A DNA stretch of 27,500 bases, taken from the NCBI GenBank assembly GCA_000310025.1, contig FN648508.1:81921-109420 (forward strand). Direction: 5' to 3'. How positions within the stretch are numbered: the first letter of the stretch is position 1; the number at the start of each line of letters is the position of its first letter. A program made the translations under genes and the position numbers. The notes below the pieces were generated by a model. The model made no database searches. It was not told the DNA's origin and saw only the letters and a program-made list of their open reading frames with translations. Source of the stretch: Ectocarpus siliculosus (taxonomy: Eukaryota; Sar; Phaeophyceae; Ectocarpales; Ectocarpaceae). Below are positions 1-27,370 of the stretch, in pieces.

Positions 1-140
1 TGGACGGGGGGGGAGTCCAGCCTTCTTTTTCGGAAGGGCCCCCGAAAGGGTTTCCCCCAGGCCTTTTTGGAGTTCCTCCCCTTCGGCCCGGCCTTTTTTT
101 TTTTTTTGGGTCTTTTGGGGGGAGAGGGGGGGGGGGGGGG
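1..140. repeat. homopolymer-rich left edge
   Basis: The first 140 bases are dominated by runs of G, C and T, including a T run near 97-108 and an almost unbroken G run near 121-142. No gene is supported. The composition may be real low-complexity DNA, or it may be poorly resolved sequence next to a contig end or gap. Confidence 0.6.
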
Positions 141-404
141 GGCATGCATGTCTCGTCAGACACCAAAAGCAGTCAAGAGCTTTAGTACGCACCCTCCTTT
201 ATTGCCACCATCCCTGTTAATATGTAACTGGTATCATGACGTTAACCGTTGGACGGTTCCATTCTGTCCTCTATCTCTCACCCAACGCGACACCGGCTGA
301 TTCCTCCAGAAATATAGTATTTGTAGCTTACACCGAGAGGTGCAAAGAGACTGACGTTCGGAAGAAAAGGGACGGCAAACACAGGCAGGCACACGACGCC
401 CTTT

Positions 405-703
405 GAAGCATTTTTTGTTTTCACCCGCGCTGAGGCTGACGTCTTTTCATTGGTCAGCCGGTTGGTGCGGTCGATGCCAATAATAATACACACACACACA
501 CACACGTTTTGTGTTTTCACCCGCACTGAGACTGACGTTTTTTCATTGGTCAGTCGGTTAGCGCGGTCGATGGTAATAGTAATACACATACACACACACA
601 CACCTCACGGGGTCCCAGATAATGGCATTTAGAAGCATTTTGTGTTTTCAGCCGCACTGAGGCTGACGTCTTTTCATTGTTCGGCCGGTTGGTGCGGTCG
701 ATG
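405..703. repeat. three-copy direct repeat (about 70-bp unit) with CA microsatellites
   Basis: Three diverged direct copies lie at about 405-477, 506-572 and 632-703. Each reads TTTTCACCCGC..CTGAG.CTGACGT, then TTTTCATTGGTCAG, then CGGTT.G.GCGGTCGATG. Copies 1 and 2 are separated by an (AC)9 tract at 488-505, and copies 2 and 3 by a CA-rich tract at about 583-603. More diverged relatives sit at 5944-5990 and 6147-6188, so this is a dispersed family as well as a local array. Short reading frames in the array are repeat artefacts. Confidence 0.8.
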
Positions 704-709
704 CTGACA

Positions 710-902
710 ACAGTGGGGGGCCCGGTTTAGCGCCCCCTACTGTCACGACGAAATGTGGTCGCTAATAATCCGAACTAACAATTATGTTGCAGTTGTACTA
801 CCGAGGGTGCGGCAGTGCGACGTGATTTTGGTTGTCGCTAAACAGGGCATATCGCAAAACAGGGGGTCGCTAAACCGGGGGTCGCTAAACCGGGGGGGGG
901 GC
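710..902. mobile_element. possible MITE-like inverted-repeat element
   Basis: The left end near 710 reads CAGTGGGGGGCCCGGTTTAG. The right end near 870-902 carries two CGCTAAACCGG copies followed by a G run and CTAC, so CCGGTTTAGCG is inverted between the two ends of a roughly 190-bp segment. The interior has no coding potential. The CAGTG start resembles hAT-type termini, but no target-site duplication is clear, so the class is only a guess. Confidence 0.35.
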
Positions 903-905
903 TAC

Positions 906-1062
906 TTGTAAAAAGACGCACGCCCTCTCGTACAGGTACTGCTGTACCTTGCTGTCCCACAGCTCGCACCGGGGAAACGTCATCCCGGAGTTCCGCTGTC
1001 CCCAGGAGGCGCACTGCCACGGGTGCGCGTTCAGCCTGTGGGCCTGAAACTCGGCCATGTTT
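906..1062 (-). CDS. probable internal exon, degenerate RanBP2-type zinc-finger-like
   Basis: On the minus strand a pyrimidine tract ending in TTTTTTCAG precedes an open segment that starts at 1062. It encodes NMAEFQAHRLNAHPWQCASW, then GQRNSGMTFPRCELW and DSKVQQYLYERACVFLQ. A weak GTAGCC donor follows 906; without it the frame stops at 885. The spacing W-x-C-x2-W-x3-N-x7-C-x2-W resembles a RanBP2 zinc finger (W-x-C-x2-C-x3-N-x6-C-x2-C), but the second and fourth cysteines are tryptophans. The residue composition is strongly protein-like, unlike neighbouring frames. It could belong to a separate gene or be a distal exon of the IQ/WW gene to the right; the phases of the modelled last IQ/WW exon do not join it directly. 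No other exons of this gene were identified. Confidence 0.45.
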
Positions 1063-1159
1063 CTGAAAAAAGACGACGACGACGTTGACACGTATCGTCA
1101 GTGTTCGTGTGCCCCGTGTGCATGTATGTTAGCAGGCGTACAGAGAGGGAAGGGGGGGG

Positions 1160-1275
1160 GGGGGTGTACTCATAGTCGTGCATGCCCGTAGTCGTTAGAC
1201 CATTGACCTCGCATCCCTACAAAGCCGGGACGGAGCACGCCGGGTTCTCACCGGACCAGGCTCTCACATCACCAA
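1160..1275 (-). repeat. dispersed repeat, left member of an inverted pair
   Basis: The reverse complement shares several ordered blocks with 26850-27030: CCTGG.CCGGTGA.AACCC, then GCTCCGTCCCG, then GTAGGGATGCGAGGTCAATG, then AACGACTA and GTGCA.GACT..GAGTAC. The two members are in opposite orientation about 26 kb apart. No coding capacity or clear termini were seen; a SINE- or MITE-like origin is possible. Confidence 0.65.
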
Positions 1276-1627
1276 GCGCGAAGCGCCGTGAGGTATGCGG
1301 CGAGTCGCATGAAGGGTGAGCTGCATCCTGCTAAGGGTGTTCGGCATCTTGTGCTTACTTCCTTGCGTACGGATGACAGCTGCGTATGACTTAATTTATT
1401 TTCTGGTGCTTTCACTTCCAGAGACAGTTGTAAGCACTGTGTAACTGCCTCGAGGATGCTTGACCATTATAACACAACGTGGTGCGATCATCCCCCTTGC
1501 GCGGAGTGAGGGTTCTCGACCCCGCACAACATGATCTACTCGACCACCACTATGGTTACCGCAAAAAAAAAAACGAGGTAAAAAAAAAAACGGTAACCTG
1601 GCTGCCGAGTTCACGAAGTGAATTGGC

Positions 1628-1866
1628 TTGTTTTACAACGTCGTTGCCAAGCGACGAAAACCCAATCCCGATGGCAATCACCGAGGGGGGGGCTTGTTTT
1701 ACAACGTCGTTGCCAAGCGACGAAAACCCAACCCCGATGACAACGGGGGGGGCGGCATGTTTTACAACGTCGTTGCCAAGCGACGAAAACCCAACCCCGA
1801 TGACAACGGGGGGGGCGGCATGTTTTACAACGTCGTTGCCAAGCGACGAAAACCCAACCCCGATGG
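1628..1866. repeat. VNTR, four units of 63-66 bp
   Basis: Units begin at 1628, 1694, 1757 and 1820 and share TGTTTTACAACGTCGTTGCC, then AAGCGACGAAAACCCAA.CC and CCGATG. They are separated by short G-rich linkers. Because the period is a multiple of three, long frames stay open on both strands, which inflates apparent ORFs. Each unit contains a short inverted repeat, CGTCG...CGACG, around TTGCCAAG. No start context, splice structure or known domain supports translation. Confidence 0.9.
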
Positions 1867-2110
1867 CAAACACCGGGGACGGGGGAAGGGGGGGGGCTTT
1901 GGGGTTGTGGGTTTTGAAAAGTATCTTGTAATCGTTGATTGCTGTTGGCTTGCGGACCCCTCTGGTCAATTTTTTTTAGTGCTTCCAAGTATAACTTTGT
2001 TGGGGGGTAAGTTAGCCTGCGACCACGGGAATCGACCGCGTCAAGTTCTTGACTAATACGGTCAGAAGAAGGTACTGGGTAGAGAGAACGGAACATTTTT
2101 TAATGTGAAG

Positions 2111-2125
2111 ACAACAACAACATCG

Positions 2126-2159
<34 letters not shown>
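2111..2159. repeat. (AAC)n microsatellite
   Basis: An almost pure AAC trinucleotide tract with one CATCGAC interruption. Poly-valine reading frames on the minus strand are artefacts of it. Confidence 0.95.
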
Positions 2160-2160
<1 letters not shown>

Positions 2161-2615
2161 CGCAAGCACGTCCGCCGGCAGGAGAAAATGTGGGGGCTGC
2201 TCAGGTGCCAAGTTTGGGGTGAAGGCCGAACTGTATTCGAACGGCATAGAGCGAATGCCCAGGCGCGGTTCTTCCTAACGTAGAAAGGCGTCGGTAATAG
2301 GTAAGTCAGCATGAAGGAAATGAGTCTATCAAAGTCGCCTGGTGTATGTGATGGTCAATAACGTGTGTCAAGAGCTCAGCGCTACGCAAAAAAAGAGGAG
2401 CGTATTCGGGCGAAAACTTTATTTCGTACACAGTAGTCGAAAAAGTACAAGCTCACATCATCATATACATGCACAGGAGGCGGTAGGTCATGTTCATCGT
2501 AGACATGACTTGACAACATCACATGCGCCACCATGCCTGCAGTCGCCCAGCAAAAACAGCAACTCCATCATGCGGAGAGAGAGAGAGGCATTTGGCCTGG
2601 CTTATGGCCGCAAAA

Positions 2616-12329: not shown

Positions 12330-15300
12330 CTACGTCGTCAGCCTCCTCTCGTTCTCGTCGATAGGGATGTCGTTCGCGCTCATGTCTCTCCAGCGCATGT
12401 ACCCGAGGTCGTCGAACTCCCAGTGCTCGTTGCCGTGCGTCCGGTACCACTGACCCTTCTCGTCGTACCACTCGTACTCGAAACGAGCGCTGATGCGGTT
12501 TCCCTGAGTATTAGCAAGCAGTCGGAGAGGAACGGGGGAGTTGGTATTATGGTGGCAGTAAGCCCCGAGCCAGAGGAGGGTCATCAGGGATGGCTGCGTG
12601 TGTGCGGAGCTAGGGGTACTCCGACACTTACTTACTTGTGGTTCTGGTTGTTTCGGCCGCTACATGTGTTGGACTGGATGGGGTGAAAATAGTGTGTCAA
12701 CCCGGGTTACCCGATCGATGGCGGGGATGTTGGGCATCGTCTCCTAAAAAACGAAAATTGCTTGATTACTTGAGATTGTATGGATTAATCAAATTTGCCA
12801 GAGCAGTGGCGTACACGATTGATTCCGCTGATCATACAGAAGCCGGGCTGCACTGACTGACACCTGGCACCAGGGCTATTTGTTGTATTTGCTGTTGAGC
12901 AAGGAGTTTTTCACCACCAGTATTAACGAGACGTGGGTGTGTGTAGTGGTATGCACGCGTGATGAAGTCTGGTTGACCCGTGAAGAAGAACTCACTTGTT
13001 GTTACTCTTGTAGAACAGCAGCAGCAGTAGCTGTTGCCTTGGGTATCGGTAGGAATGACACCAAGGGGCACAGGATCCTCTGCACAAGCAGGGGCTACTA
13101 GATCCTGTCCCCTGCTTTTTATCCTTCCGCGGAGAGTTACATCTCTCCGCGCCTTCTAGAAGGAACCAAGCTCTTCTATGTTCCGTCTACACATCTGAAT
13201 CCTATAACACTAGCCCACCCTGGAGGTTCTCATACGCAGATACTGTAAAACCTCGAGTCTTGACAAGCAATTGTCGAGTCTCTAAATGAAAGTATCGAGG
13301 ATGTGGAGCTCCAAAACAGCACAATTCACCCTCCCACACCTCTCACTCGATGAGTCGGAAGACCATCGTTTGACTTCTAAAACGACAAAAAGACACAGAC
13401 AGGAAGGAACTGACGGGGCTAAGAAAAGCCTACGACGACCGGAAGAAGATCGGAACCAAAGAAAGGAAGAAAAACAGAAAAGAAAAACAGAGGTCGTCAT
13501 AACGACAAAAAGAAAGGGTCACTGTAGGAACCACAACAAGACCGGTATCGTAAGAAAAGATCGTGTACGTCAGCGGTGCCTTCGGCGGTGAATTCTGCAG
13601 CCGTAACCGCGTACATGTCAGCACGGCGGCTGAAACGATCAGTGAAAAGCAGAATATATGTGTTTCCGCGCGGTGTCAACGGGAGGGGACCGAAATAATC
13701 GACGCTCACCGATACACCAGGGCCCGAAGGCAGCGGAAGGCACAAAGTAGGCCATCGAGGCGTTTGACGAGATGACTTGCGAGCTTGGCATCGCAAACAA
13801 TGCCGTACCCACCACTTCGTGCAAACACTCATGCCAACCCACCAATAAAAACGTTCCAGCATGCTAAGCGTGCGAGCGGCACCGAGGTGGCAGGATGCAT
13901 CAGCGTGACAGGCTTGCATGATCCACGGACGCATGAGCATGGGAACATAAATCCGAATGGGTTCGTCGTTGAGAAGGCGAGCAGCACGCCCGCCAGGACG
14001 TGTGGTCGTAGACGACGGGGGCGCTGTTTGCTTGCGAACAAGCAAGACCAAACCATCATCGTCAACATGTAACCGGCCTTTGTTAGACAGGTCACGAATC
14101 TCCGACAGAGGGGGTCGACGAGCGGACGGAAGATGATCCAGGAAATCCGGAGGGAGAGCCGAAGGCCGACCCAGAAGGATGAAACGAATAGCTGCAACAC
14201 AAACAGGTTCGTTACGTTGCTCGCGAGCCCAATCAGCATGCGAGAAACGTTCGACAGACGCCCGGAAGGCTAAATCTGCCGAGGAATGTAAAGCCGCCTC
14301 GATAGAAGAGGGGGCCGATTCCTGAGGCTCCGGCTGCAATCCACCCGAAGGCAGAGTAGCAGCGGAAACCGAGGACGAAGGCGTATAAGTGGTCGAAACC
14401 AAATGCGTCGAAGATTCCGAAGAATCGGGAGCAGCAGAAGACTGCTGGGCAGGAGCAACCGAAGTTGCAGGATGCGTCGAAGACGCAAGATCCCTTCCAC
14501 GAGCCAGAGGCGTAGGAAGGTCCGAGATCGAAGGGTCAGCACCAGGAGTCGAAACCAACCTGGTCAAAACGGGGGGCGCCGTCGATGCTGATTGTGCAGG
14601 CGGGGAACGTCGAAACGATCGGGGCGAAGCGGAAATCCGAGTAGGAGCAGGCGGGTCCTCGGAGAAACCATAATCCACGGGCGGGAGGGGCGTGCCTGCC
14701 ACAACCGCCGTGCGACGGCGAGTTCGCGTGGAAATTAGTTGAGTAGGGTCGAGAGTCCGTCGTGATGCTGCAGTCGGCGAGACGGCCGGCGAAGACTCGG
14801 GCTCGAGAGCCAAAATGTCCTCCACCGAAGAATGTAAGGAGCCAGACCAATCGAGGGTCCTGTCACCCAGGCGTCGTAGCGAAGGAGACAACCCGCGGGA
14901 GTTGATGGACGGCCAGGGTGCGATGTTCCAGATGCCAGACGGAGACGAAAGGCCTGACGGCGAGAGACGTGGACCATGCCGACGGAAGTCGACAAAATCA
15001 TCTGTAGAGGGGGCCAGCCCACCCAAGACCGAAGTCGGGGAAGTCGGGACGAGCCCACCCAAGCCAACACCCACGGCGCGATGGCCAGAAGGCGTAAGGC
15101 CACAAGAACGGATGAAGAAGACGCTCTCCTCATCGTCATCCGGTGTCAAGCGACTGCGACCAGATCGGTCACATTCCGCCGCATCGATCGGAAGGCGAGA
15201 GAGGAAATCAGCGTTGCCATTTGCTGAACCCTTGCGGTACTCGAGAGTGTAATTGTAGGCGGTAAGAAATTCAAGCCAACGCTGAACGCGGGCATTGTTC

Positions 15301-18300
15301 TCCCCCACCTTGGCAAAATGCTCAAGAGATTTGTGGTCGGTAAAAATGCGAAATTTCGTGCCCCACAAATAACCGCGAAGTCGTTTGATGCACCATACGA
15401 TGCTACCCGCCTCGAGGTCGAGGGGAGTCCAATGACGTTCGGAGTCCAAAGTAGCTCGGCTGATGAAAACGATGGGCCGGATGGAGCCATCCGGCTGTTC
15501 TTGTTCGAGAGTCCCGCCGAACCCATCGCGACTAGCATCACAGTAGAGGCGAAAAGGTCGCGAGCCGTCCGTAACGGCATCCCAGTCTGGATAAACCAAG
15601 ACAGGAGGATTGGCCAACTCAGACAGCAGGACGCGAACAGCTTGCTCCATGGCAGGGGTGAAGGCAAACGTCGCCTGCTTCTTGAGAAGAGTGGTCAGAG
15701 GTCGAATTCGCGTAGCCATGTTGGGAAGGAACTTGCGGTAGTAGCTGAGGCCGCCAAGAAGAGAGCGAAGTTGTTTAACATCCTTAGGCATGGGCATTTT
15801 GGTGAGGGTCGCAACCTTGGCCCCGTTAGGCCGAACACCGTCAGGGGAGATGGTGTGGCCGAGGAAATCCGCTTCGGTAGCGCCAATGGTGGCCTTCGGT
15901 GGGGTGAGTTTCAAGTTGTGTGTGCGCAAGCGTTCAAACAGAGCGCGCATGGTATCAACATGAGAAGCAGGGTTGTCGTCGAAAACGATCAAATCATCCA
16001 AGTTCGATGCAACACCGTGGAGATTTTTGATGACTTCGTTGACCACCTTGCAAAACCACCCAGGGGCAGCAGAACTGCCTTGAGGCATCTTCAACCACTC
16101 AAAAAGCCCGGAAGACGTCACGAATGCCGTCAAAGGGATTGTATCACGGTGAACCGTGATTTGGTGGAATGAAGACTTCATGTCGAAAAGGGAATAATTT
16201 CGCCCTTTCAACAACTTGTCCAAAGTATCATCAACTCGAGGAATCGGAAGCTGGCTCAAAGCACAAAGCTTGTTGAGCTTGCGATAGTTGACAGTGATGC
16301 GAACACCACCAGATTTATTCGGTATGACTACCAAAGGACTCGAGTAGGGCGAGGTCGAATGTTGGATCAGACCAGCGGCAAGATATTGATCAAGGATCGC
16401 GTCAACTTGTTTCGCCACCGGGGGGTTAACGCGGTATGGACGCCGTTGAGCGCGAGCCGCTGCTTGTACACGATCGCTACGAGAAGAAAAAGGGGGAATC
16501 GCCGGCACTGTATAGTCGAACTGCAACGTGCTGCGAGAAGCCGAGCGACTGGACAAGCGTGGTACTACAGGGCCAGCAACATGGTCGAAACCGATGTCGG
16601 TCCCAAGAGCAGGGTGCTCAACGGTGGATGGGGCGAGAGGAAAATTCGAGTCGACATGTGGTTCACGCGGGAATTCAGAAAGCTCATCACCAGCAGCCGT
16701 CGAGACGGACTGCTGTTGTACACCCAAAGACACAGAGGCAGGAACCGAAGTTCCAGGTGTGGGTGCTGGCGGTTTGAGGACAGCACCCACGGGGTTAGCG
16801 TCGACCGAAGCCGACGAGGCGAACCTCTCCCGAATGCGTTGAGCGCGAAGCTCTGACAAACGAGCGGCATCGGCAACAGGGTCAGCGGCACGAGCACCGT
16901 CCGAAGACAGCAGCAGCTGTGTGGCCTGACGGCCAGCTGCCGGGGACCCGAAGGTCGCTACGCGAGGCGGTGACACCGGCGAACGCGAACGTTCAGAATG
17001 CTCAGGGCTCGCCGAAGCCGAGTCCGATGAGCCGACGCTAGATTGAGACATACCGATAAGCGAGGCAAAGCTAAGCTGTGGTTGGGGCGAAAGCGCAAAA
17101 AAACTGCAGCAGCAGTCTAAAGCACCAACCGCGCCAAGACACAACCAAGCCAGACAACACCGTACGAATAAGCCGACAACGCCAAGTGTAGTGGTATGCA
17201 CGCGTGATGAAGTCTGGTTGACCCGTGAAGAAGAACTCACTTGTTGTTACTCTTGTAGAACAGCAGCAGCAGTAGCTGTTGCCTTGGGTATCGGTAGGAA
17301 TGACACCAAGGGGCACAGGATCCTCTGCACAAGCAGGGGCTACTAGATCCTGTCCCCTGCTTTTTATCCTTCCGCGGAGAGTTACATCTCTCCGCGCCTT
17401 CTAGAAGGAACCAAGCTCTTCTATGTTCCGTCTACACATCTGAATCCTATAACATGTGTGGGCTAGGGGATAGCGTTCTTCTGTCCGTGCGCCGACCCGC
17501 CTCGAGTTCACTTCCCACAGCTTTGGTGACTTTCGCACGCGACCAAAGAGCGTCGCCCGGAAGGCGTTTGCGCCCGAAATAATTGATCCTGCCTCCATAT
17601 TGTCTGCCCAAAACCAAACACATTCCCCAAACCAGAAACAATTAATTAATTAATTAAAATACACCCCACAGATACCACAACAATGGGTACTCTGCAGGCA
17701 GAGCAGGGACCTGCTCCCTGCTCCCGCTACCATCACTGTGACTGCTCGCACAGAACCAGCAGTAGCGCACAGAACCAGCAGTAGCAGCTCAGCAGCAGTA
17801 GTACACCTAGCCCACCCGAGCTGTACCCAAGTGTTGTCTACCTTCCTTACCGTAGGATACCCACCCTCAAGTGAGTTGAGGTGCTCACAAACAAGCGTGG
17901 GACAGGGTGGGCAGAGCGAGACACACTGGCGTAGTATGCAGATGATGTGGGTTGCTTTTACCTTGCCTATCGTAAGCAGACCTGCCCAGCGAGGCGGTAA
18001 ACTATAAATATATCGTATGCATGTGGCAACAAGAAAGTTCCCTCGCATAGCCTCCTGTTTCTCCGATGTTAAACAAGAAGTTATTTTCATGAGGTAAACT
18101 AGGTTGGGAAATCTTCACAATCTCCTTGCAAAACCCACGCAAAGGTGGCAACATCACAAAAAAACAGCAGCAACAGCAGCAACGATAACGACAACGACAA
18201 CAACAACAACAACACAACAACAATAACAACAACAACAACATACCTCGAACGACCAGAGGTGCTTCTTGAGGCGGTACCCCTGCTCCTTGCTCCACTTGCG

Positions 18301-20876
18301 TGTCAGGAAGGCTTGGACTTCCTCCCTCCCTTTGAAGGCAAACAGAGCACCAAAATCAGATCAAGTCAGCAAAAGGAATAGTCCTCGATAGTCGTTGGGG
18401 GGGTGTGACCGGTTACAAAGGTCATCTCCACTAAGAGTATGTCCACAAACATACGCAAAAAAAAAAGCCCCTTTTGAGTTCCTAAGAGGTCAAAGTCACT
18501 TTTACGGGCTCTTGAACCTTACACACATTTTCTTTCGTCATGTTTGCTGCTTCGTCTCCTTTTCTTTCTCGAACTAAAGCCTTAACCTATTCGACCCAAG
18601 GCCTTCAGCACACGATGAGTTAGTTCTTCGAAGTTGGGTTGTTTCTCTCTCAAGCCTGTTTGATTCGCAGGCGAGGGCATGGGTGAAACCACACCGGCAC
18701 GAAACTCAACCTAAAGTCCACAATTAATTCCCTTCTCAATATTCTCCCATTAAGCCGGAATCGGAGAGGTATACGGTAAAACGTGTCTGCAACCACCACA
18801 GCTGTAGGTGACCAATCGGATCGGATCGCCTTGGCGAGAAATTAAGTTGACGAGGAAATAGAACAGGGAGGGGGTACGCAGACCCTACCCCTACCCCTAA
18901 CCCTAACCCAACTTCCCCGATTGTATGCTTTATCCAACATGTTTACTGAAAAGAAGAACCCTGCGAAGCCGCTGGACGAATCAGAACAACCCTCCGGAAC
19001 TTGACTTCGTCGGTTGGGATTCTGCCGGCTGTCACAAGAAACAAATCCTAGCATATGGCAGAATCCCTCTCTGCTTGTTGCGGTTGCCATTGACGCAGCC
19101 AGGACACGGCAGCAGGTCGATTTTTTGAAGCGGCGGAGAACAAGCGGTAGGCTCGTTTATGGTGCAGGAAATTTGGCAGTAGCGGGGCACCAAGACTAGA
19201 AAAATGAAAACCACGCTTCTGTTGTCAGTCGAGACAAATTTTGTCGTTCCCACATCTTCAAAGGTGCGTGCAGTACCGATACGCTAGGAAACACGATCCG
19301 AGCATGTTCCGGCTCATTGTTAAGCACCCACAAATGCTGCAACATACATACACATCGCTCAGACTACGCTCAGAGACAAAATCAAACCCCAACAAGCAAG
19401 AATTTCGCAGTTCGCCGACGTACGTACTCTTATATGTGCTGGTGTGTACACACCCATGTACCTATGCACCTGCGAATATCTCGTCCCTGTTTCTCCAGAC
19501 AGTGTCCGGGCTGTAAGCAGCGGCGACCTTCGCCGGGTCTCGGGTGTTCCACGCCGCCTCCGCTGCTTTGGTCTTCTTCAGAGCGGTCTCCGCAGTGAAC
19601 GGCGGCAGGGGGTGCTGGGGGCGCGTGCATATGCAAGCAGACAACGTAGAGCAGTGAGGGGTTGGGAGGGGGGGCGTACGTGATGCCCGGTAACATTCAG
19701 GGGGGGCACTCCTACATCTATTTAGGCAACATCAGAGTGTTGGGACCTCTGGATTTTTGCTGCATGAACGTCTACGTTAACGGGCTTTGTCCGAGTGGTA
19801 CGGTGCTTGCTCGGCAGCAGGGGCGGCCACGCCTTGGCAATGCTTGTTTTTTTTCCTCGAGTGAACGAAAGGCGCATGGGCCATGGGATGACGCTCTGTT
19901 TCCAGGCGTGGGGGAGCACATTGCTGCCGCGCGGCAGACGGTGATGTGTGTAGGAACAAGCGAAATATGTGGTGCAGTGCCCCTACCGAAACTGAGCTAC
20001 AGCAGCGACCCCAACGAGGTGGGTATGTATTTGAAAAGAATTGTTCGGCCCAAGCGGATAATCGGGGCGTTAGTGCGTTTATCTCCCGAACTTTCAAGTT
20101 AAACAGCAGTGCAGCAATGCCACCACTGGTGCTGCTGGTTCTGCCGCCGCTGTTTCGTGTGTGTGCCAATGGAGCTCTACCTCAGCACCAACCCGACACT
20201 CACGCGCAAAATACGCTCAGCAGCATGAGCACACGACGTGCCAGTGTGGTGCCGAGGGGGTGCCAACATCGTCTCAGATCCACCGCAACATCTTCACGTT
20301 TGGTCTCATGTTTTCTTCCTTCCCATCTGCGTACAGACTATGCCGGGCGCCTGTAGTTAGCGTTGTGCTCTACGCTGGAGCATGAAGAGAAGCACGCGCG
20401 TCAACCCCCCCAACTGATTATATATAAACTTCGGACTGCGGGAGTGAAAAGGTCGTCGTATCCTGTTCGCCTCGCATATTTAGAGCGAGTTGCCGGAGGG
20501 TAAATGCACATCGGTACAACAAAACTTCCGCTGGGCGCACACCACCCGGTGTCACAAGGAAGGATCAACACGCGAAAACAAGAAGCATCGTACAGACCTT
20601 GGGGGGTTCCTCGTGGGGCTTCCAGGTCATGCTCCCCTCGTCCCCGTAGTCGCAGTAGATCTTGCTGCGGCTGCTGTGGGACAGGGCATTGAACGCGGCG
20701 GGGTTCGGCCACTCGGCTGCTGCCGCCGCTGAAGCTGGATCAGACGACGACATCCTGCAGCAGGTTGGTGAGAAGGATCCCGCCGCTGCTGCTGCGGCGG
20801 TCTTTGCGACGGCTCGCTTCCCTGACAACCGCGAGGAGGCGGAGAGCACGAAGCACAGCTTGTTAAGCACGAGCAT
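12330..20876 (-). CDS. DUF1348 / SnoaL-like (NTF2-fold) protein, four exons, retrotransposon in intron 3
   Basis: Minus-strand exons 20876-20598, 19614-19470, 18329-18244 and 12503-12330 (TAG) join in phases 0, 1 and 0 to give 227 residues. The last three exons encode a full DUF1348-like core that matches the bacterial family from end to end. Landmarks are [95 protein letters not shown] and [19 protein letters not shown]. The family adopts the NTF2/SnoaL cone fold; its reaction is not established. Exon 1 adds about 93 residues. The first 42 ([10 protein letters not shown]..., rich in Ala/Ser/Arg/Lys, no acidic residues) look like an organelle-targeting extension. Alternative starts are 20906 and 20753 (MSSSDP). 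Introns are 983, 1140 and 5740 bases; the last holds a complete-looking LTR element. The close similarity to bacterial proteins suggests ancient lateral acquisition, an inference only. Confidence 0.85.
12942..13209 (-). repeat. 3' LTR (268 bp)
   Basis: Matches 17187-17454 base for base as read. In element sense it starts TGTTATAGGATTC and ends ACCACTACA. It contains a TATA-like GGATAAAAAG (13115-13124) and an inverted repeat GCGGAGAG/CTCTCCGC (13129-13150). Confidence 0.95.
13210..13496 (-). other. non-coding segment between pol stop and 3' LTR
   Basis: This 287-base stretch follows the truncated integrase. In element sense it is T-rich, then mixed, and ends AGGGTGGGCTAG directly before the LTR, a poor but possible polypurine tract. 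No integrase remnant was recognised in any frame, consistent with deletion or replacement rather than a simple frameshift. Confidence 0.5.
13497..17051 (-). CDS. Ty3/gypsy pol polyprotein: RT, RNase H, truncated integrase
   Basis: The start chosen is ATG at 17051 (MSQSS), 135 bases inside the 5' LTR, because the in-frame extension to 17240 reads LTR and leader. The protein has 1184 residues. Residues 1-200 are Ser/Pro/Ala-rich with no CCHC knuckle and no D(T/S)G protease motif. Reverse transcriptase runs about 205-400 ([12 protein letters not shown] with Asp290; SNLDDLIVF at 349-357, with Asn in place of the usual Tyr of YxDD; FLGHTI). RNase H runs about 498-620 (LYCDAS Asp505, Glu547, [10 protein letters not shown] Asp572, NADFLSR Asp615). 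A low-complexity linker of roughly 350 residues follows. The integrase zinc finger is at 1049-1088 (H..H, C..C), then the first catalytic Asp in VDYFGPLP (1118). After about 1162 the frame leaves integrase homology and stops, so the second Asp and the Glu are missing. It probably cannot support its own transposition. Confidence 0.92.
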   Translation of the reverse strand: MSQSSVGSSDSASASPEHSERSRSPVSPPRVATFGSPAAGRQATQLLLSSDGARAADPVADAARLSELRAQRIRERFASSASVDANPVGAVLKPPAPTPGTSVPASVSLGVQQQSVSTAAGDELSEFPREPHVDSNFPLAPSTVEHPALGTDIGFDHVAGPVVPRLSSRSASRSTLQFDYTVPAIPPFSSRSDRVQAAARAQRRPYRVNPPVAKQVDAILDQYLAAGLIQHSTSPYSSPLVVIPNKSGGVRITVNYRKLNKLCALSQLPIPRVDDTLDKLLKGRNYSLFDMKSSFHQITVHRDTIPLTAFVTSSGLFEWLKMPQGSSAAPGWFCKVVNEVIKNLHGVASNLDDLIVFDDNPASHVDTMRALFERLRTHNLKLTPPKATIGATEADFLGHTISPDGVRPNGAKVATLTKMPMPKDVKQLRSLLGGLSYYRKFLPNMATRIRPLTTLLKKQATFAFTPAMEQAVRVLLSELANPPVLVYPDWDAVTDGSRPFRLYCDASRDGFGGTLEQEQPDGSIRPIVFISRATLDSERHWTPLDLEAGSIVWCIKRLRGYLWGTKFRIFTDHKSLEHFAKVGENNARVQRWLEFLTAYNYTLEYRKGSANGNADFLSRLPIDAAECDRSGRSRLTPDDDEESVFFIRSCGLTPSGHRAVGVGLGGLVPTSPTSVLGGLAPSTDDFVDFRRHGPRLSPSGLSSPSGIWNIAPWPSINSRGLSPSLRRLGDRTLDWSGSLHSSVEDILALEPESSPAVSPTAASRRTLDPTQLISTRTRRRTAVVAGTPLPPVDYGFSEDPPAPTRISASPRSFRRSPPAQSASTAPPVLTRLVSTPGADPSISDLPTPLARGRDLASSTHPATSVAPAQQSSAAPDSSESSTHLVSTTYTPSSSVSAATLPSGGLQPEPQESAPSSIEAALHSSADLAFRASVERFSHADWAREQRNEPVCVAAIRFILLGRPSALPPDFLDHLPSARRPPLSEIRDLSNKGRLHVDDDGLVLLVRKQTAPPSSTTTRPGGRAARLLNDEPIRIYVPMLMRPWIMQACHADASCHLGAARTLSMLERFYWWVGMSVCTKWWVRHCLRCQARKSSRQTPRWPTLCLPLPSGPGVSVSVDYFGPLPLTPRGNTYILLFTDRFSRRADMYAVTAAEFTAEGTADVHDLFLRYRSCCGSYSDPFFLSL
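17167..17184 (-). other. candidate primer-binding site
   Basis: Two bases inside the 5' LTR the element-sense strand reads TGGCGTTGTCGGCT, complementary to a tRNA 3' end of form ...AACGCCA. The TGG start and position are typical of gypsy primer-binding sites. The matching tRNA was not identified. Confidence 0.5.
17187..17454 (-). repeat. 5' LTR (268 bp)
   Basis: Identical by eye to the 3' LTR. In element sense it should drive transcription from the TATA-like motif at about 17360-17369, with the start expected roughly 25-30 bases further toward lower coordinates. The same hairpin lies at 17374-17395, upstream of the TATA motif. Confidence 0.95.
17641..17790. repeat. short repeats in host intron 3
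   Basis: An (AATT)n tract occupies about 17641-17657, and GCACAGAACCAGCAGTAG is duplicated in tandem at about 17748-17784. These lie in the host intron beside the retrotransposon. Confidence 0.7.
18184..18241. repeat. (AAC/CAA)n microsatellite at exon 3 donor
   Basis: A CAA-type tract abuts the 5' splice site of the minus-strand exon 18329-18244, so in gene sense the intron begins GTATGTTGTTGTTG. Length variation here could affect splicing. Confidence 0.9.
18883..18909. repeat. short interstitial telomere-like repeat
   Basis: CCCTACCCCTACCCCTAACC then CTAACCC has two exact CCCTAA units plus degenerate neighbours, the complement of TTAGGG. It lies in intron 2 of the DUF1348 gene. At under 30 bases it is not a chromosome end. 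Confidence 0.6.
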
Positions 20877-26300: not shown

Positions 26301-27370
26301 GCGGGGGGGGCGGCGCGTCTCGCCCCTGCTGTGCGTGGCTCTCGATTTCTATGTGCGTACTTGTCGTTCTTGTTGTTTTGGTCTAAAAAAGGTGGGCGCT
26401 GGCGGTGCACGAATAAATACCTCGTGCACGCCGATGTACCTCCTGGGGGGGGAGAAGGGAGGATTGGGTAATTCTCGTTGACATTGCTCAGCAGTGTTCT
26501 ACTACACCACTGATTTGGTTTTCACTTGGACGTCTTTATTTAGATAGGTAGGTATTGCTTTCGCTTTCTTCGTGCACCCTGGCGAAAGCGAGCAAGTGGT
26601 GGTTGTGTGGGGATCACTCTCATCACAACGGGCACACTCTCCCCAAAGTCTGTCGAGGACGAATTTCCTAGTTTTTGTTCTTTATTTATTTATTTGTTTC
26701 TTTTTCTTCTTGTGTACTTGGTGACGTTGTAGCCCTTTGTATATGTTGTCGCCCGGCGGCGATAGCCTTGCGATGGTATGGATGGCACGAACCCCTCTGC
26801 TATCTCCCATCCCTTACCTACCCCCCTACCCCTGGTGCATCCTTGCGAAACGTAGCCTGGGCCGGTGAAAACCCCGACACATCGCTCCGTCCCGATAGCA
26901 TTGTAGGGATGCGAGGTCAATGGTCTAGGTAACGGCTACACATGCGTTTGCACCACCCCCCTTTGAGGGGATGCGAGGTCAACGGTCCAACGACTAAATA
27001 AGGCGTGCACGACTTTGAGTACCCTCCCCCCTCCCCTGCCCCTGACCACCTTCTAGGTACGCCTATTCGTGCTGATCCTTCCGGCACCGGACGAGGACGC
27101 GGACGGGGTTTCCACGCCACTGGAGAAGCGTGCACCGCCGCCGGTCCTTTGGGTCGACCAGGCGCGCGAATCGTCTAGGTTCCGCTGCTACAACAGCAAC
27201 AACCGTACTCTCGATAGCAGTAACCGTACTCTCAACAGCAGTAGCGGTGATGGTGATAGTGGTGGTGGTGGTGGTAGTACCCGCCCGCCGATACACCGCC
27301 GTAGCGAGAACGATTCCGGTGCAAACCCCGGAGACGGCGTTCCTGGGCCATCGTCCATCGGGAAGGGGAG

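Follow-up and report, generated by a model that had tools for sequence, protein, structure and literature searches.

The Ty3/Gypsy elements described from Ectocarpus include one lineage in which a NADAR domain of the YbiA family is conserved, for example Gypsy-12_Ec32, as well as families with chromodomains, and the published account gives lengths of 3.9-14.5 kb for the LTR elements of this alga (PMC12477816). According to the same account, intronic transposable elements (TEs) in Ectocarpus are shorter and more divergent or degraded than intergenic ones, and gene expression is not related in any major way to the TE content of introns (PMC12477816). We analysed a 27,500-nucleotide stretch of DNA from Ectocarpus siliculosus (hereafter the window; contig C92, positions 81921-109420, of a 189-Mb assembly in 492 contigs), in which an LTR retrotransposon lies within an intron of a gene encoding a DUF1348 protein. 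Internally deleted LTR elements of autonomous families keep their LTRs, primer-binding site (PBS) and purine-rich tract (PPT) and lose the coding interior, as the window copy has done. The element is real, recent and of an ordinary, already described kind; our preferred reading, to which we give a probability of about 0.8, is the recent insertion of a deleted Ty3/Gypsy derivative that would be passive in intron 3.

The host gene comprises four exons on the minus strand, arranged as follows.

20598..20753, minus strand: exon 1, coding part from the ATG (open frame continuing in phase 0 into exon 2; start codon inferred)
19470..19614, minus strand: exon 2 (PF07080 positions 1-47; GT-AG)
18244..18329, minus strand: exon 3 (PF07080 positions 44-74; donor GAG/GTATGT)
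12504..18243, minus strand: intron 3 (5,740 bp; about 1.22 kb when the insert is subtracted)
12330..12503, minus strand: exon 4, ending at the stop codon (PF07080 positions 72-129; AG acceptor at 12504-12505)

All three introns (983, 1,140 and 5,740 bp) have GT-AG borders, the exon 3/exon 4 junction is in phase 0, and the spliced product of 186 residues covers positions 1-129 of the 130 in PF07080 (E 7e-58), so that the domain is complete. These results bear out an earlier note on this DNA, which had placed a 4.5-kb element, in the same sense as the gene, between exons 18329-18244 and 12503-12330, had considered the host coding sequence intact and had estimated an empty intron of about 1.2 kb. 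The gene shares the minus strand with the element, and joining the two exons across the insert of 4,513 bp (12942-17454) gives a complete domain. A profile search of the genome with PF07080 returned three matches, each of them an exon of this gene, and a second DUF1348 gene was rejected accordingly. The family is widely shared, as PF07080 is also found in one of the 14 control genomes, that of a cyanobacterium.

Several minor features were observed in and around the gene. Intron 2 contains a short telomere-like run, GGGTTAGGGTTAGGGGTAGGGGTAGGG (18883-18909, minus strand), recognised by eye; a pattern search for it gave no match. A 41-nt inverted repeat, 85% complementary, lies close to both ends of the window (1189-1229 and 26956-26996) and perhaps represents two copies of a dispersed repeat, and a tandem array of about four copies of a 63-66 bp unit occupies 1625-1884. 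An Rfam scan of the window at gathering scores gave no match, nor did a search of viral contigs with the P0001 peptide patterns.

The insert itself has the following structural parts.

12942..17454, minus strand: LTR retrotransposon copy, a deleted derivative (4,513 bp)
17455..17458, minus strand: upstream copy of the target-site duplication, CACA (from flank comparison)
17187..17454, minus strand: 5' LTR (268 bp, TG...CA)
17172..17184, minus strand: primer-binding site TGGCGTTGTCGGC (13 nt with one G-U pair to tRNA-Ser(AGA); pairing by eye)
13210..13221, minus strand: purine-rich tract AGGGTGGGCTAG (identical 12 bases before 18 of 19 3' LTRs)
12942..13209, minus strand: 3' LTR (268 bp, identical to the 5' LTR)
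12938..12941, minus strand: downstream copy of the target-site duplication, CACA (from flank comparison)

The direct repeat as found extends over 269 nt (12941-13209 and 17186-17454) at 100% identity; its 269th base is a chance match, since the match ends at 268 in other family members, and an LTR length of 268 bp was obtained when 30 LTR loci, including both from the window, were compared. The LTR ends read TGTTAT...ACTACA at 29 of these loci, the remaining one ending in CCTACA. Duplications of 4 bp border five of the six LTR pairs examined (CACA in the window, then ATAC, GGAG, CCCC and ATTG); the pair on contig C89 has no edge duplication and shares a 7-nt string. In the window the length of the duplication is ambiguous between 4 and 6 bp because the flank reads CACACA. 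By eye, the PBS pairs with the 3' end, CCA included, of a tRNA-Ser(AGA) whose gene lies at C9:4386528. CTTGGCG directly follows the LTR in all 11 of the 5' LTRs compared. At the other end, AGGGTGGGCTAG precedes 18 of 19 3' LTRs, the window's included, and AGGATGGGCTAG, with one change, precedes the other. With two direct LTRs, TG...CA termini, a target duplication, a PBS and a PPT, the insert is an LTR retrotransposon, as the earlier note had recognised; what that note missed is that this copy, with its incomplete pol, carries two deletions and a mutated RT and derives from a family whose members measure 9-15.7 kb. Loci L012, L020, L025, L027 and L030 share the 268-bp LTR and differ in the leader just inside it: their match to the window copy stops at element base 283, L027 rejoining further in. 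In L012 the PBS fits tRNA-Ser(AGA) more closely, with 20 nt matching as printed, and that of L020 fits less well.

The element landed in an older repeat, about 425 bp long and dispersed in the genome, where it has tens of matches that are 72-97% alike over pieces.

17455..17670, minus strand: first half of the older repeat (approximate edge)
12736..12941, minus strand: second half of the older repeat (from genome matches of the joined flanks)

When the flanks were joined, the resulting 520 bases aligned uninterrupted across the insertion point at nine other distinct places (C2 at 1,087 kb and at 583 kb, C4, C16, C9 twice, C12 and C26 twice), although at C2 583 kb the alignment crosses that point by only about 19 bases. 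This search took in 15 loci, which include the window itself (L047), pairs for the same place, L046, which matches only another stretch, and L044, which has no listed match. The best uninterrupted place, on C2, reads CTAGCCCACACACCCACG, which fits a duplication of 4 to 6 bp. These paralogous empty sites of the older repeat back a clean insertion. No other allele or haplotig lacking the insert was seen, the flanks matching at full length only the window among the matches listed, where the other matches to the flank query are pieces within repeats. Seven of the nine places entered a multiple alignment, in which no clear terminal repeats of the older repeat were visible by eye. One edge of this repeat is rich in TTAATTAA.

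The element carries a truncated open frame and two deletion junctions.

13497..17246, minus strand: open frame of 1249 aa, truncated (leader, RT, RNase H and integrase zinc domain)
16442..16443, minus strand: deletion junction A (about 7.9 kb missing relative to the C89 copy: gag, NADAR and protease)
15849..16325, minus strand: reverse transcriptase RVT_1, motif NLDD (Pfam; YLDD in relatives)
15255..15563, minus strand: RT_RNaseH (Pfam)
13770..13946, minus strand: Integrase_H2C2 (Pfam)
13558..13565, minus strand: deletion junction B, with a 6-nt filler (about 1.7 kb missing relative to C89: most of the integrase and a weak chromodomain match)
L058 (C89:160000-167900), positions 1-2601, minus strand: NADAR ahead of the protease in the C89 relative (Pfam)

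The order RT, RNase H, integrase is that of Ty3/Gypsy, the assignment being made by domain order. At least 40 other pol matches align to the interior of the window copy, at 94-99% and only over 16442-13565 or parts of it; these matches include fragments, two of the matches adjoin each other on C92, and one further row of the pol search is a 3' piece on C132. The same LTR has at least 40 full-length matches in the genome, two of them the window's own, and these yield 11 pairs within 20 kb, of which the window pair delimits 4,513 bp and the ten others 8,993-15,658 bp. For example, the copy on C89 measures 14.1 kb; the 5' part of the window copy stops about 7.9 kb before the C89 pol, and its 3' part resumes about 1.7 kb past it. 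The C89 stretches missing from the window contain a NADAR domain (PF08719, E 4e-25) and an rve integrase core (E 2e-9), together with a CCHC-knuckle gag and a DTG protease motif that were recognised by eye, a Pfam search of the gag piece giving no match. A C-terminal Chromo match in C89 is weak and below the cut-off (E 0.016).

At 32 of the at least 40 other pol matches, NADAR is located upstream of pol at a distance of 1,483-1,661 bases, as measured with 35 of 150 NADAR matches picked by eye for their contigs. It is lacking at eight of 40, of which one is at a contig start and two are the adjoining C92 pieces. All 150 NADAR matches scored, from 230 candidates, were over the cut-off; some of them belong to other families. 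The C89 copy thus resembles the NADAR-containing Gypsy lineage of Ectocarpus in having NADAR followed by protease, RT, RNase H, integrase and a weak Chromo match, the likeness to Gypsy-12_Ec32 being drawn from the published description rather than from a consensus sequence. In contrast, the window copy is without NADAR, gag and protease and has lost the greater part of the integrase. The only Pfam domains of its frame are RVT_1, RNase H and Integrase_H2C2; rve is absent, and there is no NADAR in pol. Judged by LTR and pol identity it is a derivative of the NADAR-carrying lineage, not a complete member. Its RT motif reads NLDD, whereas YLDD is found in all seven relatives compared. With gag, protease and a complete integrase missing and this motif altered, the window copy should be incapable of autonomous movement, and any later move would need a helper.

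The identity of the LTRs (268 of 268 positions) agrees with the recent insertion proposed in the earlier note, and the alignment check shows no differences; by the rule of three, divergence is under about 1.1%. Across the six pairs examined there are 0 differences in the window, C89, C36 and C50 and 1 each in C85 and C21, so the family members examined are young. Identical LTRs could also arise by gene conversion, which counts against a recent insertion. Private substitutions in pol gave no signal for timing or for mobilisation in trans. The window copy has nine in 2,878 columns (four silent, five replacing) and seven relatives have 4-14, as counted on seven of the at least 40 pol matches after exclusion of gap columns and of sites variable among the other seven rows. 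Even if all nine postdate the insertion, this rate predicts only 1.7 LTR-LTR differences, and the private differences are too few to time either the insertion or the deletions.

How the copy came to be short can be considered from the two junctions. Junction A shows a 1-nt overlap and keeps the reading frame, junction B contains the 6-nt filler and the frame stops soon after it, and each was found at one place in the genome in a search allowing up to 2 mismatches. Neither has GT-AG borders, and an origin of the deletions from spliced RNA was rejected on this ground. The window copy is a one-off rather than a member of an amplified non-autonomous family, as each junction is single in the assembly, and a multi-copy short family was discarded likewise. 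In our preferred reading of a recently inserted deleted derivative, the genomic RNA of a full-length element would have been packaged with working proteins, and two internal stretches would have been lost when this RNA was reverse-transcribed, or else already in a source copy absent from the assembly searched. The cDNA, with intact LTR ends, would then have integrated with a 4-bp duplication into the older repeat in intron 3, and the insert would be removed together with that intron, with little effect on the host. That the deletions arose before or at integration is the somewhat favoured part of this scheme; splicing of the insert with intron 3 and a near-neutral effect on the host are each most likely.

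It is less probable, though a serious alternative, that a full-length element of 13-14 kb inserted first and was then cut down within the intron by two deletions, which were perhaps kept as shorter introns harm the gene less. End joining leaves short overlaps and fillers at junctions, and the overlap at A and the filler at B fit this process. Both junctions are also private to the window copy, and intronic TEs of Ectocarpus are described as reduced in length and more degraded (PMC12477816). The same structure would be seen if the deletions had followed the insertion, which weakens the case for deletion before integration. However, two separate large deletions would be required while the LTRs still show no difference.

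It is unlikely that the insert alters host transcripts, either through LTR-started RNA splicing from a GTGAGT donor to exon 4 or through host RNA ending in the element. The sense orientation, an ATAAAA box at LTR base 88, donor-like CAA/GTGAGT sites at 17240 and 12995 (one in each LTR) and a pyrimidine tract with CACAG that resembles an acceptor and ends at 17076, ahead of an ATG at 17051, would permit such changes, but consensus words by themselves prove nothing, and the published account finds no major link between intronic TE load and expression (PMC12477816). The earlier note had allowed for a polyadenylation signal in the LTR; AATAAA and ATTAAA are absent from the LTR on both strands, and the one such hexamer on the element sense strand, at 16319, is inside the coding frame. 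It is quite unlikely that a splice donor of the LTR itself (GTGAGT), lying upstream of the PBS, is used together with an acceptor in the leader that precedes the first ATG. If so, the spliced RNA would lose the PBS and serve translation only, the unspliced RNA being the template, and the same donor could join exon 4 to give an LTR-driven, N-truncated DUF1348 transcript.

A non-autonomous lineage carrying both deletions and mobilised in trans by full-length relatives is very unlikely, as the genome has no second copy of either junction at up to 2 mismatches, although some NADAR matches, certain of them in other families, lie in stop-free frames of at least 2,000 aa.

The locus offers a clean case for the trend towards short intronic TEs published for this brown alga (PMC12477816). 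Within a gene of a widely shared family, a large retrotransposon family is represented only by a shortened copy, whose junctions are unique and whose LTRs are identical, and this raises the question of whether the shortening came before insertion, or afterwards by selection.
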